From positions 97,234 to 161,233 of the forward strand of contig NZ_LMIW01000015.1 in the NCBI RefSeq assembly GCF_001429185.1: a stretch of 64,000 nucleotides of DNA, read 5' to 3'. Below, in pieces: positions 18,699 to 24,800 of the stretch; the stretch's first letter is position 1; each line of letters opens with the position of its first letter. The DNA is from Terrabacter sp. Root85. GTDB taxonomy: Bacteria > Actinomycetota > Actinomycetes > Actinomycetales > Dermatophilaceae. A program made the translations under genes and the position numbers. The notes beneath the pieces are model-generated. The model saw only the letters and a list, made by a program, of their open reading frames with translations. It searched no databases and was not told the DNA's origin.

Positions 18699-19571
18699 AT
18701 GCATCTCGGACTGCACCTCGCCAACTTCACGTGGAGCGGCGGCTCCTCCACCTTCGTCGACGACCTCGTCCGCACGGCGCGGACCGCCGAGGACGTCGGC
18801 TTCACCAAGCTCTCGGTCATGGACCACGTCTGGCAGATCGGCATGGTCGGGCCCAAGGAGCACGAGATGCTCGAGGCCTACACGGCCCTCGGCTTCCTCG
18901 CGGCCGTCACCGAGAAGGTGCAGCTGCTCGCCTGGGTCACGGCCGCCGTCTACCGCGAGCCCGGGCTGCTCGCCAAGGAGGTCACGACCCTCGACGTGCT
19001 GTCGAAGGGCCGCGCCATGCTCGGCATCGGCGCGGCGTGGAACGAGGAGGAGTGCGTCGGTCTCGGCCTACCCTTCCCCGCCACCGCCGAGCGCTTCGAG
19101 CGCCTCGAGGAGACGCTGCAGATCTGCCTCCAGATGTGGGGCGACAGCGTCGAGCCGTATGCCGGCAAGCACTACCGGCTCGGCAGCACCCTCAACTCCC
19201 CGCAGTCGGTGCAGCGCCCGCACCCGCCCATCCTCATCGGTGGCGGCGGCGAGAAGAAGACGCTGCGGATGGTCGCGCAGTACGCCCAGGCCTGCAACCT
19301 CTTCGACAGCCCCGACCTCGCCCACAAGCTCGAGGTCCTCCGCGGCCACTGCGAGGCTCTCGGCCGCGACTACGACGAGATCGAGAAGACCGTCATGGGG
19401 CCGGTCGACCCGGGCCCGAACGGCGAGAACGTCGACGCCACCCTCGAGCACCTCCGCGACCTCGCCGGGCTGGGTGTGACACACGTGCAGCTGGGCATCG
19501 GTGACGGGTCGAAGACCGACGTGCTCGAGCTCATCGGCGAGCGCATCATCCCCGAGGCCGCGAAGCTCTGA
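18699..19571 (+). CDS. LLM class (F420-dependent) oxidoreductase
   Basis: A 290-residue luciferase-like TIM-barrel enzyme. It starts MHLGLHLANFTW, with DLVRTARTAEDVGFTKLSVM and MDHVW in the first units, AYTALGFLAAVTEKVQLLAWV in the centre, and FPATAERFERLEETLQICLQMW and PPILIGGGGEKKTLRMVAQYA (the GGGGEKK cofactor-phosphate loop) later. Actinobacterial members of this subgroup usually use coenzyme F420. The substrate is unknown. It is transcribed alone, with a leaderless promoter and a large inverted repeat just downstream. Confidence 0.88.
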   Translation: MHLGLHLANFTWSGGSSTFVDDLVRTARTAEDVGFTKLSVMDHVWQIGMVGPKEHEMLEAYTALGFLAAVTEKVQLLAWVTAAVYREPGLLAKEVTTLDVLSKGRAMLGIGAAWNEEECVGLGLPFPATAERFERLEETLQICLQMWGDSVEPYAGKHYRLGSTLNSPQSVQRPHPPILIGGGGEKKTLRMVAQYAQACNLFDSPDLAHKLEVLRGHCEALGRDYDEIEKTVMGPVDPGPNGENVDATLEHLRDLAGLGVTHVQLGIGDGSKTDVLELIGERIIPEAAKL

Positions 19572-19597
19572 GCCTCGTCGGGCTCCGACGCAGCAGT

Positions 19598-19662
19598 CCC
19601 GCCGTGGCTGGATGGTTGCGGCGAGGTCGGGTGACTGGCCGCATCCATCCACCCACGGCGGG
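19598..19662. repeat. Large imperfect inverted repeat between convergent genes
   Basis: 19598-19619 and 19641-19662 pair over 22 bp with two mismatches (core CCCGCCGTGG with CCACGGCGGG, then TGGATGG with CCATCCA), leaving a 21-nt loop. It occupies the 142-bp space between the LLM oxidoreductase and the ABC permease genes. It could be a bidirectional terminator or a small REP/MITE-like element; the copy of GTATGCC at 19662-19668 begins on its last base. Confidence 0.6.
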
Positions 19663-19713
19663 TATGCCGCAGAGCTCGCTCAGTCGGTCGCGACCGCGGG
19701 CGTACGCGTCGGG

Positions 19714-20640
19714 CTAGCTGAGGATGTCGCTGCGCCGGAAGCGGCGGTAGGCGAGCATCGTGAAGGCGACGGCCCACACGAGCGCCCACAGGGCGCCGTG
19801 CACCATGTCGGTGTAGTCCGGTGACACGGCGAGGGCGTCCTGCCAGGCCCGCGAGTAGTGGCCCGGGAAGGCGTTGCGGTAGGGGTCGAGCGCGTCGAGC
19901 TGGTCGAGGATGTTGAGCAGGATGCTGACGAGCACGGCGCCGCCGACCGCGGCGAGCGGCGCGTCGGAGCGGGTCCCGATCCAGAAGGCGATGGCTGCGA
20001 TCGGCAGCAGTGTCACGAAGATGTAGGCCATCGCGAGCGCCAGGCGCGGCAGGAACTGGCCCCACGAGAGGTTCTCGCCGAGCGGGTTGGTCAGCGGGTC
20101 CCATCCGTAGGCGACGCCGCCGACGAGCAGGCCCCACGCCGGCAGCAGGACCGTCGCGACGAGGGTCGAGGCGATCCCGATCGCGAGCTTGCTCGTGAGC
20201 AGGCGGGCCCGCTGCACCGGCGCGATGAGCAGGTAGCGCAGCGACGACCACGACGCCTCGGACGGCACGGCGTCGCCGCAGAAGAGGGCGGCGAGCAGCA
20301 CGAGGAGCAGCTCCGAGGCGAGGAAGACGAGCACGAGGCTGAAGTTCGCGGCCCCGCTCTGGGCGAGGTCGAAGATCCGGGTCGAGGCACCGCCACGGCT
20401 GTTGCTCGACCGCTGGCCGAAGGCGAACGACCCGACGAGGACGAGCGGCAGCGCGAGGAGCAGTCCGAAGGCCCAGATCGTGCGTCGCCGGCCCCACTGC
20501 CGGCGCAACTCGGACCGCCACGACAGCGGGTCGCGCACCTGGTGGATCTCGCCGCTCCCTGCTGCCGGAGCCGGCTCGATGACGTCGAGCAGCGCGTCCC
20601 CGGGGCTCACGTCCGGGCCCTCTGCGTGGGTCTCGCTCAT
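19714..20640 (-). CDS. ABC-2 type transporter permease
   Basis: A 308-residue permease with a cytoplasmic N-terminus of about 60 residues, then six hydrophobic segments: IWAFGLLLALPLVLVGSFAF, NFSLVLVFLASELLLVLLAA, KLAIGIASTLVATVLLP, LALAMAYIFVTLLPIAAIAF, DAPLAAVGGAVLVSILLNIL and GALWALVWAVAFTMLAY. FCGDAVPSEASWSSLRYLLI is the typical ABC-2 intracellular loop that docks on the ATPase. Its ATG overlaps the last codon of the upstream hydrolase-ATPase fusion gene by 4 bp, so the two proteins form one transporter. The direction and substrate are not evident. Confidence 0.87.
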   Translation of the reverse strand: MSETHAEGPDVSPGDALLDVIEPAPAAGSGEIHQVRDPLSWRSELRRQWGRRRTIWAFGLLLALPLVLVGSFAFGQRSSNSRGGASTRIFDLAQSGAANFSLVLVFLASELLLVLLAALFCGDAVPSEASWSSLRYLLIAPVQRARLLTSKLAIGIASTLVATVLLPAWGLLVGGVAYGWDPLTNPLGENLSWGQFLPRLALAMAYIFVTLLPIAAIAFWIGTRSDAPLAAVGGAVLVSILLNILDQLDALDPYRNAFPGHYSRAWQDALAVSPDYTDMVHGALWALVWAVAFTMLAYRRFRRSDILS

Positions 20641-23432
20641 CGCGCCCTCACCTGCCTCAGTCGCTCGACGAGGGACGCGCCCTCGTCTCCGGGCTCGCCG
20701 GCCGCACCCGGTGCGGACGCCGACGAGATGACGCCGAGGAAGACCTCCTCGAGGTGGCGGCGGCTGCTGACGCCGACGACGGGCAGCCCCGCCGACACGG
20801 CAGCCGCGACGACCTCGGCCCGGCCGCGGTCGGCGACGACGACGATCCGGGTCGGGGTGTCGACGCGCACCTCGGTGACGCCACCTGCGGCCTCGAGCGC
20901 GTGCACGCCGGCGCTGACGACGTCGTGGGCGACGTGCTCGGGCAGGTCGAGGATCGTCGTGTCGTCGCTGTCGACGAGCTCGGCGACGGGGCCCTGCGTG
21001 ATGACCCGGCCGGCGTGCATGACGACGACGTGGGTGCACGTCATCTCGACCTCGGCGAGCAGGTGGCTCGACACGACGACGGTGCGCCCGGTCTCGGCGT
21101 AGCGGCGCAGGATCGGGCGCATCGCCGCGATCTGGGGCGGGTCGAGGCCGTTGGTCGGCTCGTCGAGGATGAGCAGCTCGGGCAGCCCGAGCATGGCCTG
21201 GGCGATGCCCAGTCGCTGCTTCATGCCGTGGCTGTAGGACTTGACCGGCCGGTCGACGGCGCCGCCGAGGGCCGCGACGTCGAGCGCCTCGGCGATGTGG
21301 GCGTCCTCGGGGTCCCGGCCCGTGGCGGACCAGTAGGCCTCGAGGTTCTGGCGCCCGGTGAGGTGCGGCAGGAAGCCGGGTCCCTCGATGAGCGCACCGA
21401 CCCGGCCGAGCACCCGCGAGCCGGCGGAGACGGGCTCGCCGAGCACGTGGACGCTGCCGGCGTCGGAGGAGATGAGTCCCATGACCATCCGCATGGTCGT
21501 CGTCTTGCCGGCGCCGTTGGGGCCGAGCAGCCCGACGACCTGACCCTTCTCGGCCCGCCACGACACGTCGTCCACGGCGCGGTGGCCGTCGGCGTACGTC
21601 TTGACGAGTCCCTCGATGACGAGCGGGACGTCGGCGAGGTCAGGCCGCGCGGGCAGGTGCATCCGGCGGCGCCGGCGCACGAACCAACCGGCGAGCGCCG
21701 CGAGGAGCAGCACCGCGAGGGCGCCGGAGGCGAGGAGGGTCTCGGTGTCGACGCCGCCGGCCACGGCCCCGTCGACCGCAGCACCGGTCGCGACCGGGAG
21801 GGTGAGCGCCGAGGCCCCCGAGATGCGGATGCCGCTCGGGGTCCGCGAGTTGGAGTACGTCGACTCGGTGCTCGTCAGCAGGACGCGCCACCGGGTGCCG
21901 GCCGGCAGGTCGTAGGTCGCTGCCGGGAGCGAGATCGTCACGGGGGTGGGCCGGCCCGGCGTCACGGTGAGGCGCACCGGCGCGACGAGCGGGTTGGTCA
22001 GCGTCACCGAGCCACCGGTGACGCGCCACACCGACGCGAAGAGCGTGACGTCCGGCGCGTCGGACGTGACGGTGAGTCGCATCGTCGGCGACCCGACCAC
22101 CGTCTCGGCCTCGGCGACGGGCTGGGTGTCGAGGGCCGTCGACTGACCGGGCAGCGCCGCGATCTGGTACGTCGAGAGGCTGACGCCCAAGGCGGCGAGG
22201 CCGGGCACGGCGATGAGCGAGGCCGGCTGTCCGCCGGGCGGGTGCAGCAGCGCCCCGGAGGTCGTCGTCAGGGGCAGCTCGCGCGTCCGGAGTGCCGCGC
22301 CGGACAGCCCCGGGTATGCCGTGAGGGTGTGGAGCGTCGTCGGCTGACCCGCCCGACCGGCGGGGGTGCCGTAGGTGAAGGCCGCTGTGGGCAGGGCCGA
22401 TCCGCGCGCGCCCTTGTCGCGCACGTAGTGGTCGAGCCACGTGTAGGAGGCCTCGACCTCCTCCGCCTCGTGGGTGCTCGGGGCGTCGTGGCCGCCGTCG
22501 CTCCACCGGACGGCATACGGCGTGCCGGAGGCGGCGAGCGCCGACGCGTTGGCGTCGGCCTGGTCGAGCCCGAAGAGCGAGTCGCCGACCCCCTGGACGA
22601 GGAAGGTCGGCGCGGTGACGGCGTTCATCGTCGGCTTCGGGCTGTGCGCGCGCAGCAGCGTCGTCAGCTGTGGTGAGGCGGTGCCGGTCTCGGAGGCCTG
22701 GACGAAGAGGCGGCAGATCGTCGGGTCGAAGCGGCCGCAGTCGGCGGCTCCGGTGCCCGCCCCCTGGCCGCCACGGAGCGCCGAGAGGAAGAAGTTCGTC
22801 GCCCAGACCTGCTTGAAGGGTCCGACGACGTCGATCGGCGAGCGCCCGGCAGCGGTGGTCGCCGGCTTCGTCACGGCGGCCTGCGGGAAGAAGGCGTCGG
22901 CGAGGTCGTTCCACGTGATGGCCGAGACGACGCCGTCGACCCGCCGGTCGGAGCCGGCCAGCATGAGGGCGAGGGCGCCGCCGTAGGAGGCACCCATGAC
23001 CCCGGCGCGCGGGTCTCCCGGACCGTCGAGCTCGACGTCGGAGCGCTTGGCCGCGAGGTCGAGCAGCGTTCTCGCGTCAGCGATCTCGTAGGCCGGGTCG
23101 TTGAGGTGGATGCGACCGCCGGACGCGCCGTGCCCACGGGCGCTCCACGCGATGACGACGTAGCCGCGGTCGTGCAGGTCGTTCGCCTGGCTCGTCACCG
23201 AGTCCTTGGTGCCGCCGAAGCCGTGGGCGAGCAGGACGACCGGGTGCTTGCCGCTCGACTGCGGCCACACGGAGACGTCGAGGCGCACGGCCGTGCCGTC
23301 GGGCTCGGCACCGACGGGCACCGTCGTGGCCTCGGGCGAGACCGGGTCGGCGGCGAGAGCGGCCGGGGCGGGCGCCATCGCCAGGCTCGACCCGAGGACG
23401 AGCGCGGCGAGGAGGGAGGCCCGGACCGACAT
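20637..23432 (-). CDS. Secreted alpha/beta hydrolase (S15/CocE-like) fused to ABC transporter ATPase
   Basis: A 931-residue fusion. A signal peptide (about 1-30, ending APAALAA) leads to an S15/X-Pro dipeptidyl peptidase-type alpha/beta hydrolase: HPVVLLAHGFGGTKDS, AWSARGHGASGG, the nucleophile elbow GASYGG and a late Asp/His region (SDGGHDAPSTH), then a beta-rich domain to about 555. One membrane helix (about 565-585, ASGALAVLLLAALAGWF) with a following RRRRR stop-transfer leads to a cytoplasmic ABC ATPase with GPNGAGKTT near 637-645, signature YSHGMKQRLGIAQ, and LLILDEPTNGLDP. The hydrolase would be outside and the ATPase inside. I chose the ATG at 23432, with TGTGAT 6 nt before it; a GTG at 23438 is the alternative. 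Confidence 0.88.
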   Translation of the reverse strand: MSVRASLLAALVLGSSLAMAPAPAALAADPVSPEATTVPVGAEPDGTAVRLDVSVWPQSSGKHPVVLLAHGFGGTKDSVTSQANDLHDRGYVVIAWSARGHGASGGRIHLNDPAYEIADARTLLDLAAKRSDVELDGPGDPRAGVMGASYGGALALMLAGSDRRVDGVVSAITWNDLADAFFPQAAVTKPATTAAGRSPIDVVGPFKQVWATNFFLSALRGGQGAGTGAADCGRFDPTICRLFVQASETGTASPQLTTLLRAHSPKPTMNAVTAPTFLVQGVGDSLFGLDQADANASALAASGTPYAVRWSDGGHDAPSTHEAEEVEASYTWLDHYVRDKGARGSALPTAAFTYGTPAGRAGQPTTLHTLTAYPGLSGAALRTRELPLTTTSGALLHPPGGQPASLIAVPGLAALGVSLSTYQIAALPGQSTALDTQPVAEAETVVGSPTMRLTVTSDAPDVTLFASVWRVTGGSVTLTNPLVAPVRLTVTPGRPTPVTISLPAATYDLPAGTRWRVLLTSTESTYSNSRTPSGIRISGASALTLPVATGAAVDGAVAGGVDTETLLASGALAVLLLAALAGWFVRRRRRMHLPARPDLADVPLVIEGLVKTYADGHRAVDDVSWRAEKGQVVGLLGPNGAGKTTTMRMVMGLISSDAGSVHVLGEPVSAGSRVLGRVGALIEGPGFLPHLTGRQNLEAYWSATGRDPEDAHIAEALDVAALGGAVDRPVKSYSHGMKQRLGIAQAMLGLPELLILDEPTNGLDPPQIAAMRPILRRYAETGRTVVVSSHLLAEVEMTCTHVVVMHAGRVITQGPVAELVDSDDTTILDLPEHVAHDVVSAGVHALEAAGGVTEVRVDTPTRIVVVADRGRAEVVAAAVSAGLPVVGVSSRRHLEEVFLGVISSASAPGAAGEPGDEGASLVERLRQVRAR

Positions 23433-23494
23433 GCCCACATCACATCACGGGCTCGTCGTTGAACGGTCACCGACCGTCGAGGGTTGGACCCGGG

Positions 23495-23743
23495 TCAGTC
23501 GCGGGAGAGCCGCTGCTCGAGGACGTAGGCGACGACGATGCACGCGACGAGGACCATCCCGGGCGGGAGGAACCGCGCGGCCCCCTCGAGCTGGAGCCAC
23601 GCGTACGGCGCGACGGTGAACTCGAAGAGCGACAGGTCGAGCAGGTAGCGCACGATCGGGAGCACCCCGAAGACGATGCCGATGACGCCGACGAGGTTGA
23701 TGACGAAGCGCGAGCGTGCTCCGGTGTCCTGCGGGTCGGTCAC
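23495..23743 (-). CDS. Small two-helix membrane protein
   Basis: An 82-residue protein with two hydrophobic segments, about 14-36 (VINLVGVIGIVFGVLPIVRY) and 60-76 (PGMVLVACIVVAYVLEQ), joined by a short loop with FEFTVAPYAWLQLEG. I do not recognise a family. The GTG at 23743 overlaps the stop of the upstream ankyrin gene by 4 bp (GTGA), so it is the third gene of an operon with the CREST-type membrane protein and the ankyrin protein. It may be a membrane partner of one of them. Its 3' end is 62 bp from the start of the hydrolase-ATPase fusion gene. Confidence 0.65.
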   Translation of the reverse strand: MTDPQDTGARSRFVINLVGVIGIVFGVLPIVRYLLDLSLFEFTVAPYAWLQLEGAARFLPPGMVLVACIVVAYVLEQRLSRD

Positions 23744-24138
23744 CCTCGGTCCTCTCCGTCGATGAGGTGCTGCTGCCCGAACAGCTGGGCCGTGGCGCGC
23801 GCGGTCGGCGACCCGGCGTCGAGGTCGGCGCCCGCGGCGACGAGGACTCGGACGACCTCGTCCTCGCCCTTGAACATCGCCCCGGCCACCGGGGACTGGT
23901 CGCGGTCGTTGCGGCGGTCGACGTCGGCGCCGCGGTCCACGAGGCTCGTGACCGTGTCGAGGTGACCGTGGTAGGCCGCGAGCATGACGAGCGTGTTGCC
24001 GGCGGGGTCCTGCTGGTCGAGCGGGAAGCCGTGGTCGAGGAACTCGACGAGGTCGGCCGTGCGCCCGTCGCGCGCCATGTCCATCGCGACCGCCACGATC
24101 TGCTCCTGCTGCTCCGGCGTGAGCGGCGACTCCGTCAT
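23740..24138 (-). CDS. Ankyrin repeat protein
   Basis: A 132-residue soluble protein with a helical N-terminus (LTPEQQEQIVAVAMDMARDG) and about three ankyrin repeats: TADLVEFLDHGFPLDQQDPA, GNTLVMLAAYHGHLDTVTSL with VDRGADVDRRNDR, and SPVAGAMFKGEDEVVRVLVA with AGADLDAGSP. Ankyrin repeats bind other proteins; there is no catalytic motif. It overlaps both neighbours by 4 bp (24135-24138 with the CREST protein gene, 23740-23743 with the small membrane protein gene), so the three products are made together in fixed proportion. Confidence 0.87.
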   Translation of the reverse strand: MTESPLTPEQQEQIVAVAMDMARDGRTADLVEFLDHGFPLDQQDPAGNTLVMLAAYHGHLDTVTSLVDRGADVDRRNDRDQSPVAGAMFKGEDEVVRVLVAAGADLDAGSPTARATAQLFGQQHLIDGEDRG

Positions 24139-24800
24139 GCCACCAACCTACGGGTCGCCCAGTGGCGGGCGAGGCACCACCCGGCGACGGCGCCGAGGAC
24201 GTGCCAGGCCGCATGCCCCTGCAGCGGGCTCGTCGGGTCGCAGAGGACGCCCCACTGGTCGAGCAGCCAGAGGGCGTATGCGGTCACGAGCAGTCCCAGC
24301 CCGACGTGCAGCCAGCGCGCGCCGCCGGCACGGCCCCGGGCGGCCACCAGCTCGAGGACGATGCCGGGCAGCAGGACGGCGGCGAAGAGCACCCGCCGGG
24401 ACTCGGGCCAGACCCGGAGCAGGACGCCGAGGGCCACGAGGAGGGAGACCCCGCCGAGGACGGCCACGCGCGGCGTGACCCGGCGCAGGCGCACGAGGGC
24501 ACCGGCGAGCAGGACGCAGCCGACGGCATACATCGGGAGGACGTCGACGAACTGGCCCCACAGCGTCAGGGTCGCGTGGAAGGCGAAGCTGCCGATCCCG
24601 ACGGCGACGAGCGAGACCGCGAGGAGCGGGACGAGGACGCGCTCGGGACGCGCGGCAGGACCCAGGAGCACGGCTGCGGCGACCCCGGCCACGACGAAGG
24701 CCAGGGACGACCACGCGTCGGCCGGCTGGGCGATGCCGTCGGGGCGGGCGAGCTCGCAGAAGCAGCGGGTCGCGAGGCACGTCGCGCCGTCAGCGGGCAT
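24135..24800 (-). CDS. CREST/ceramidase-like membrane hydrolase
   Basis: A 221-residue protein with about seven hydrophobic segments in the pattern of alkaline ceramidase-like (CREST) proteins. [20 protein letters not shown] starts the domain, [20 protein letters not shown] carries the conserved Ser, His and Asp, and [15 protein letters not shown] near the end has the paired His. In the family these residues bind zinc and hydrolyse lipid amides. The real bacterial substrate is unknown. It is the first gene of an operon with an ankyrin protein and a small membrane protein. A TACCGT box 6 nt before the ATG points to a leaderless mRNA, back to back with the Tpx promoter. Confidence 0.8.

Follow-up and report, generated by a model that had tools for sequence, protein, structure and literature searches.

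A secreted S15-type hydrolase fused to an ABC ATPase and paired with an ABC-2 permease in Terrabacter sp. Root85 and other Actinomycetota

Fusions of enzymes with ATP-binding cassette (ABC) components are already known, among them the prodrug-activating secreted peptidases ZmaM, EdeA and PamJ, which are joined to an ABC half-transporter (PMC9889268). A different fusion is encoded in a 64,000-nucleotide stretch of the genome of Terrabacter sp. Root85 (contig NZ_LMIW01000015.1, positions 97,234 to 161,233; hereafter the window, in whose own coordinates positions are given). It comprises an S15-type hydrolase, one transmembrane helix and a complete ABC ATPase, and is followed by a gene for an ABC-2 permease (Table 1). 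As in ZmaM, EdeA and PamJ, a secreted serine hydrolase lies N-terminal to the membrane segment and ABC ATPase of a single chain, with the hydrolase outside and the ATPase inside. However, the ZmaM hydrolase is a D-Asn peptidase of family S12 (beta-lactamase superfamily), whereas that of the fusion is an alpha/beta hydrolase, and the S12 family PF00144 is absent from its Pfam matches. The ABC part of ZmaM is a half-transporter of the cyclic-peptide-transporter type within the same chain, while the membrane domain of the Terrabacter system is a separate ABC-2 permease; likewise, ZmaM-type genes are found inside biosynthetic clusters, but the fusion gene is outside any. With these differences the fusion system stands outside the ZmaM family, which it resembles without homology, although it may work in a comparable way. 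No description of an S15-type ectodomain combined with one transmembrane helix, an ABC-2 ATPase and a separate permease was found in the literature searched, which had most subscription journals outside it.

Other known systems share parts of this architecture. FtsEX combines an ABC ATPase system with an extracellular hydrolase (RipC, PcsB or CwlO), and its control of wall hydrolases is established (PMC10694151, PMC6355983); however, this hydrolase is a separate protein and FtsX, which has a large ectodomain, belongs to the ABC3 permeases, whereas the permease of the fusion system belongs to ABC2_membrane and has six long helices joined by short loops. NosFY of NosDFY (PDB 7o0y) and the other ABC-2 (type V) transporters PmtCD, Rv1217c-1218c and ABCA, like the fusion system, have an ATPase with a C-terminal extension and a six-helix permease fold, but no signal peptide, enzyme or extra transmembrane helix lies ahead of their ATPases. 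The Pseudomonas alcaligenes lipase PaL and the cocaine esterase CocE also consist of an alpha/beta hydrolase plus a beta domain, but are free enzymes with about 20% identity to the fusion hydrolase and have neither the transmembrane helix nor the ATPase. The stand-alone secreted S15-like hydrolases of Actinomycetota have a related hydrolase and beta domain, several of them with a GxSYGG elbow, but neither a fused ATPase nor a matching permease alongside.

The fusion is one conserved protein

A search of 296 Actinomycetota genomes with the hydrolase half alone provided the fairer test of how often the fusion occurs. In the 14 best genomes (E < 1e-50, the window's own counted) every match was located in a frame of 881-1171 amino acids, which is fusion-length; weaker hydrolase relatives were mostly stand-alone proteins of 500-720 amino acids. 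In the window's family a strong match was present in 53 of 119 species, nearly all within long frames, and the exceptions looked at were a contig end (L115) and a true unfused paralogue (L113). The ATPase was also present in 70 of the 71 hydrolase-positive open reading frames (ORFs) of the fetched loci. The window itself contributes two of these 70, and peptide patterns from both halves had served to choose the pattern-search loci. The remaining ORF, L025, comes from a metagenome-assembled genome and has a split frame. Recurrence in independent assemblies shows that the fusion is not a sequencing error; it is one real, conserved protein.

The unfused paralogue (L113:5946-7805 (-), genome G338, contig 11) is 620 amino acids long, about 51% identical to the window hydrolase and retains the triad. 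It terminates just past the transmembrane helix, and no ATPase or permease was found near it in the 14 kb read. The G338 genome also carries a full fusion with its permease (L114).

Conservation was counted in 62 aligned homologues spanning many actinobacterial families, with residues numbered from the GTG at 23438. The catalytic residues S151, D286 and H317 are invariant (62/62), and the Walker A sequence GPNGAGKTTT, residues S736, G738 and M739 of the signature region, the DEPT motif and H792 are kept in all 62 homologues or nearly so. In every homologue a hydrophobic helix connects the two halves and has two or more basic residues after it. Since the triad and the ATPase motifs are both retained, both activities are under selection. 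In comparisons of the window with seven relatives, nonsynonymous divergence (dN) was well below synonymous divergence (dS) in the hydrolase core, the beta domain and the ATPase. The short linker and transmembrane stretch evolves faster, with dN below dS in seven of seven pairs, marginally so against L017 (0.464 vs 0.47).

Hydrolase, ATPase and permease

A reading of this DNA made earlier from its letters alone (the sequence-only reading) had described a secreted S15-type hydrolase with a beta domain and a GASYGG nucleophile elbow, then one membrane helix, RRRRR and a full ABC ATPase. The first part is borne out by the signal peptide, the Pfam matches, the AlphaFold2 model and the invariant triad, and the second by AlphaFold2, Pfam and motif conservation. 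The GASYGG elbow corresponds to residues 149-154. Matches to Peptidase_S15 (PF02129, residues 47-292, 57.8 bits, cut-off 23) and PepX_C (PF08530, residues 429-537, 40.9 bits, cut-off 22.5) place the hydrolase in the S15/CocE-NonD group. The AlphaFold2 run, which used 47 window and locus sequences, gave a mean pLDDT (predicted local distance difference test) of 86 and an unbroken helix, residues 565-593, linking two folded halves.

The closest solved structure to the hydrolase model is PaL (8yzn; Z score 31.5 over 449 residues), an enzyme that hydrolyses menthyl propionate (PMC9902596). CocE (1ju3) gave a Z score of about 27, and X-Pro peptidases and alpha-amino-acid ester hydrolases ranked below both in Foldseek; PaL was also on top in the profile search with the hydrolase. 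Because the nearest structures are a lipase and a cocaine esterase, an esterase is a better guess than an X-Pro peptidase, and the model comparisons favour this assignment, although they do not prove it. The X-Pro specificity considered in the sequence-only reading thus found no support, S15 being a Pfam name and PaL and CocE being structurally nearer. The HGFGG motif holds Phe74 in all 62 homologues; its presumed counterpart in CocE is Tyr44 of the oxyanion hole.

A hydrophobic N-terminal stretch reaches the threshold (KD15 of at least 1.6) in 59 of the 62 homologues. The fusions of L046 and L052 start with lipobox signal peptides (LAAC, within LAACSS), and judging from this motif the two proteins are probably lipid-anchored at the N-terminus in addition to the transmembrane helix. 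These lipobox signal peptides place the hydrolase outside the cell, and the basic run that follows the transmembrane helix places the ATPase inside. Cysteines C234 and C242 are each kept in 60 of the 62 homologues and form a candidate disulphide, compatible with an oxidising compartment.

Profile and structure comparisons assign the ATPase to the ABCA/NosF/DrrA type; it matches ABC_tran at residues 623-763 (100.2 bits, cut-off 25). None of the 25 NCBIfam models listed for the fusion reaches its cut-off and all cover only the ATPase half; the best-scoring models for the ATPase, also below cut-off, are those for lantibiotic protection and DrrA. For a role in anti-phage defence, a PADLOC scan returned weak matches to the ABC domain only. 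The permease matches PF12679 (45.9 bits, cut-off 27.2) and PF12730 (40.3 bits, cut-off 27), corresponding to ABC2_membrane_2/4, and its best fold match is NosY, followed by PmtCD and ABCG proteins. The ATPase, with its Walker A, signature, Walker B and H-loop, and the adjoining ABC-2 permease together make the system a predicted ABC-2 exporter.

The permease gene lies directly 3' of the fusion wherever the locus sequence extends far enough downstream. In the window its start is located inside the fusion stop codon (ATGA), and the 4-bp overlap was observed in 53 of 53 measured loci, taking in each the start closest to the stop, which supports the co-translation proposed in the sequence-only reading. 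The survey of domain order across genomes that it had called for showed a conserved order, and in 25 diverse loci the permease was the only conserved neighbour, no other neighbour family being common beyond close relatives. The remaining clusters of seemingly conserved neighbours in these loci consisted for the most part of ORFs that overlie the fusion and permease in antisense or in another frame, no substrate-binding protein was among the conserved neighbours, and the flanking genes belong to mixed, mutually unrelated housekeeping or metabolic families.

Distances in the hydrolase, ATPase and permease trees correlate at 0.92-0.96 (permutation maximum about 0.16), and 31-35 of 46 splits are common to the trees, as expected if the three parts have been co-inherited since one fusion. 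The fused hydrolases cluster apart from the sampled stand-alone ones, with a weak clade support of 0.28. The module was also found in Candidatus Nanopelagicales. A fusion with permease is present on a contig labelled Rubrivirga sp. NP52 (L054, a metagenome-assembled genome of Bacteroidota), by either horizontal transfer or mis-binning of an actinobacterial contig. Another two-gene system (L112) is located on the 386-kb plasmid NZ_LR134452.1 of Tsukamurella tyrosinosolvens (219332-222591), where the public annotation reads 'alpha/beta fold hydrolase', then 'ABC transporter permease'. Annotation that names one half only hides a two-gene system, whether it serves for export or for control of the enzyme.

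Export coupled to cleavage and alternative explanations

The favoured explanation, which has about an even chance of being correct, is a two-gene ABC-2 (type V) exporter with a secreted serine esterase on each ATPase chain, held at the outer face of the membrane and cutting the substrate at its exit. It is supported by the signal peptide, the hydrolase fold, the basic-ended transmembrane helix, the complete ATPase, the overlapping permease gene, the invariant active sites of both enzymes and the co-inheritance of the parts. ZmaM and its relatives are a precedent from the literature, and the few regulator genes next to the system are of kinds often seen with drug pumps. ABC-2 transporters consist of two ATPases and two permeases, so each complex would be formed from two fusion and two permease chains, with a pair of hydrolases tethered close to the exit. 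The pump would move a hydrophobic or acylated compound outwards from the cytosol or the inner leaflet, and the esterase would cleave an ester bond, or less probably a peptide bond, as the compound emerges; thereby a product could be unmasked, a toxic compound destroyed or its return prevented. Positioning of the enzyme at the exit would be the main role of the fusion. Because hydrolysis is exergonic, ATP need not drive it. Export with cleavage is the economical explanation, and processing or release of a substrate during export, as the sequence-only reading had suggested, is viable. If correct, it would define a widespread actinobacterial transporter family with a processing enzyme built into the motor subunit, and the invariant triad would offer an easy handle on the exported or detoxified compound.

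Several points weigh against this explanation. NosY is matched only modestly by the permease (E-value 1.4e-3, TM-score about 0.5), and a predicted TM-score (pTM) of 0.63 means that the relative placement of the fusion domains is not fixed by the AlphaFold2 model. No biosynthetic cluster or metabolic hint was found around the locus, either in the 25 diverse loci or among the flanking genes. Regulator genes stand beside only 3 of the loci examined and are weak evidence. Finally, NosDFY passes a conformational change to a periplasmic partner, so that an ATP-gated enzyme has to be considered.

Such an enzyme, the main rival explanation but one of fairly low likelihood, would transport nothing: the ATPase and permease would act as an FtsEX- or NosDFY-like mechanotransmitter switching the hydrolase on an envelope substrate, for example a lipid or a wall acyl or peptide bond, which comes close to the mechanical tie between outer hydrolysis and ATP use in the sequence-only reading. 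The near-NosF/NosY fold of ATPase and permease, the lack of an ectodomain on the permease itself and the absence of a cargo-gene neighbour in the 25 diverse loci are consistent with this, as is the presence of the module in Candidatus Nanopelagicales, which shows that it is not limited to antibiotic producers. However, FtsX belongs to another class, ABC3 with a large extracellular loop, ABC-2 permeases are mainly exporters, and the membrane-anchored paralogue of L113 keeps its triad with neither ATPase nor permease nearby. An obligate tie between hydrolysis and ATP is disfavoured since G338 keeps this paralogue beside a full system elsewhere in the genome. The narrower proposal is doubtful: here the covalent helix in each chain would let cytosolic ATP hydrolysis directly gate or power the serine hydrolase outside, and the protein would be an ATP-controlled ectoenzyme and not a transporter. 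If gating were true, the system would allow the control of an enzyme by an ABC motor across a membrane to be studied in a single chain.

It is also unlikely that the system is a detoxification pump, which would remove and destroy a lipophilic ester or peptide antibiotic in the membrane, the hydrolase inactivating the compound and the ABC-2 pump expelling it. The sub-cut-off scores of the ATPase with the lantibiotic-protection and DrrA models point in this direction, as do the plasmid-borne Tsukamurella copy and the patchy occurrence of the system, in 53 of the family's 119 species. TetR and PadR neighbours are common for drug pumps, and a TetR gene is located immediately upstream in both Actinomadura loci (L036:6853-7518 (+) and L061:7083-7742 (+)) and a PadR gene immediately after the permease in another locus (L110:2207-2770 (-)). 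However, such neighbours are exceptional among the loci, and no resistance model reached its cut-off.

An importer with an outside substrate-processing enzyme, the first option of the sequence-only reading, is highly improbable: nutrient trimming is conceivable for a hydrolase located outside, but the permease is of the exporter-type ABC-2 class (near NosY, PmtCD and ABCG), and the conserved neighbours include no substrate-binding protein.

No in-frame start codon in the linker of the window fusion is preceded by a good Shine-Dalgarno sequence. Locus L008 lacks ATG, GTG and TTG altogether between its hydrolase and its ABC domain, and the earliest in-frame start past the hydrolase is a GTG inside the latter. 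An artefact, of which the sequence-only reading had warned in general and which the split frame of L025 might recall, is thus barely conceivable: the linker, transmembrane helix and basic run are conserved across homologues, a sequencing error joining two genes is ruled out by scores of independent assemblies, and separate proteins from an internal start are ruled out by the linkers just described.

Gene organisation and upstream sequences

The features of the two genes are listed in Table 1. The genome containing the window is 4.9 Mb in size, and the closest sequences by the fusion gene are from Terrabacter and Terracoccus (97% identity).

Table 1. Features of the fusion and permease genes in window coordinates
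Feature	Position	Strand	Basis
Hydrolase-transmembrane-ABC ATPase fusion gene	20637..23438	-	Single unbroken frame; 933 amino acids from GTG 23438, 931 from ATG 23432
Signal peptide MSVRASLLAALVLGSSLAMAPAPAALA/AD, residues 3-30	23349..23432	-	Sequence; hydrophobic N-terminus common among homologues
Alpha/beta hydrolase core (S15), residues 31-350	22389..23348	-	Pfam, triad conservation, fold
Catalytic triad in hydrolase core	S151 22986-22988, D286 22581-22583, H317 22488-22490	-	Motif and position
Beta-sandwich domain (PepX_C type), residues 354-550	21789..22379	-	PF08530; strands in AlphaFold2 model
Single transmembrane helix, residues 565-593, with RRRRR 588-592 (21663-21677) at its end	21660..21746	-	AlphaFold2
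ABC ATPase domain, residues 605-830, and C-terminal extension, residues 831-933	20640..21626	-	Pfam, motifs, fold
ATPase motifs: Walker A 639-648, signature 736-740, Walker B/DEPT 755-762, H-loop H792	inside 20640..21626	-	
ABC-2 permease, 308 amino acids, with six long helices and lacking a large extracellular domain	19714..20640	-	Pfam, model

A scan of 19560-24300 for sigma-70-like promoters and terminators gave no match and is uninformative at this G+C content. Small ORFs that overlap one another occupy 23495-24214 (-), immediately upstream of the fusion gene and in its orientation. A gap of about 57 bp separates them from the start of the fusion, so co-transcription is possible. One of them ends in two hydrophobic helices (VTDPQD...VLEQRLSRD) and is preceded by an ankyrin-like protein (23740-24138).

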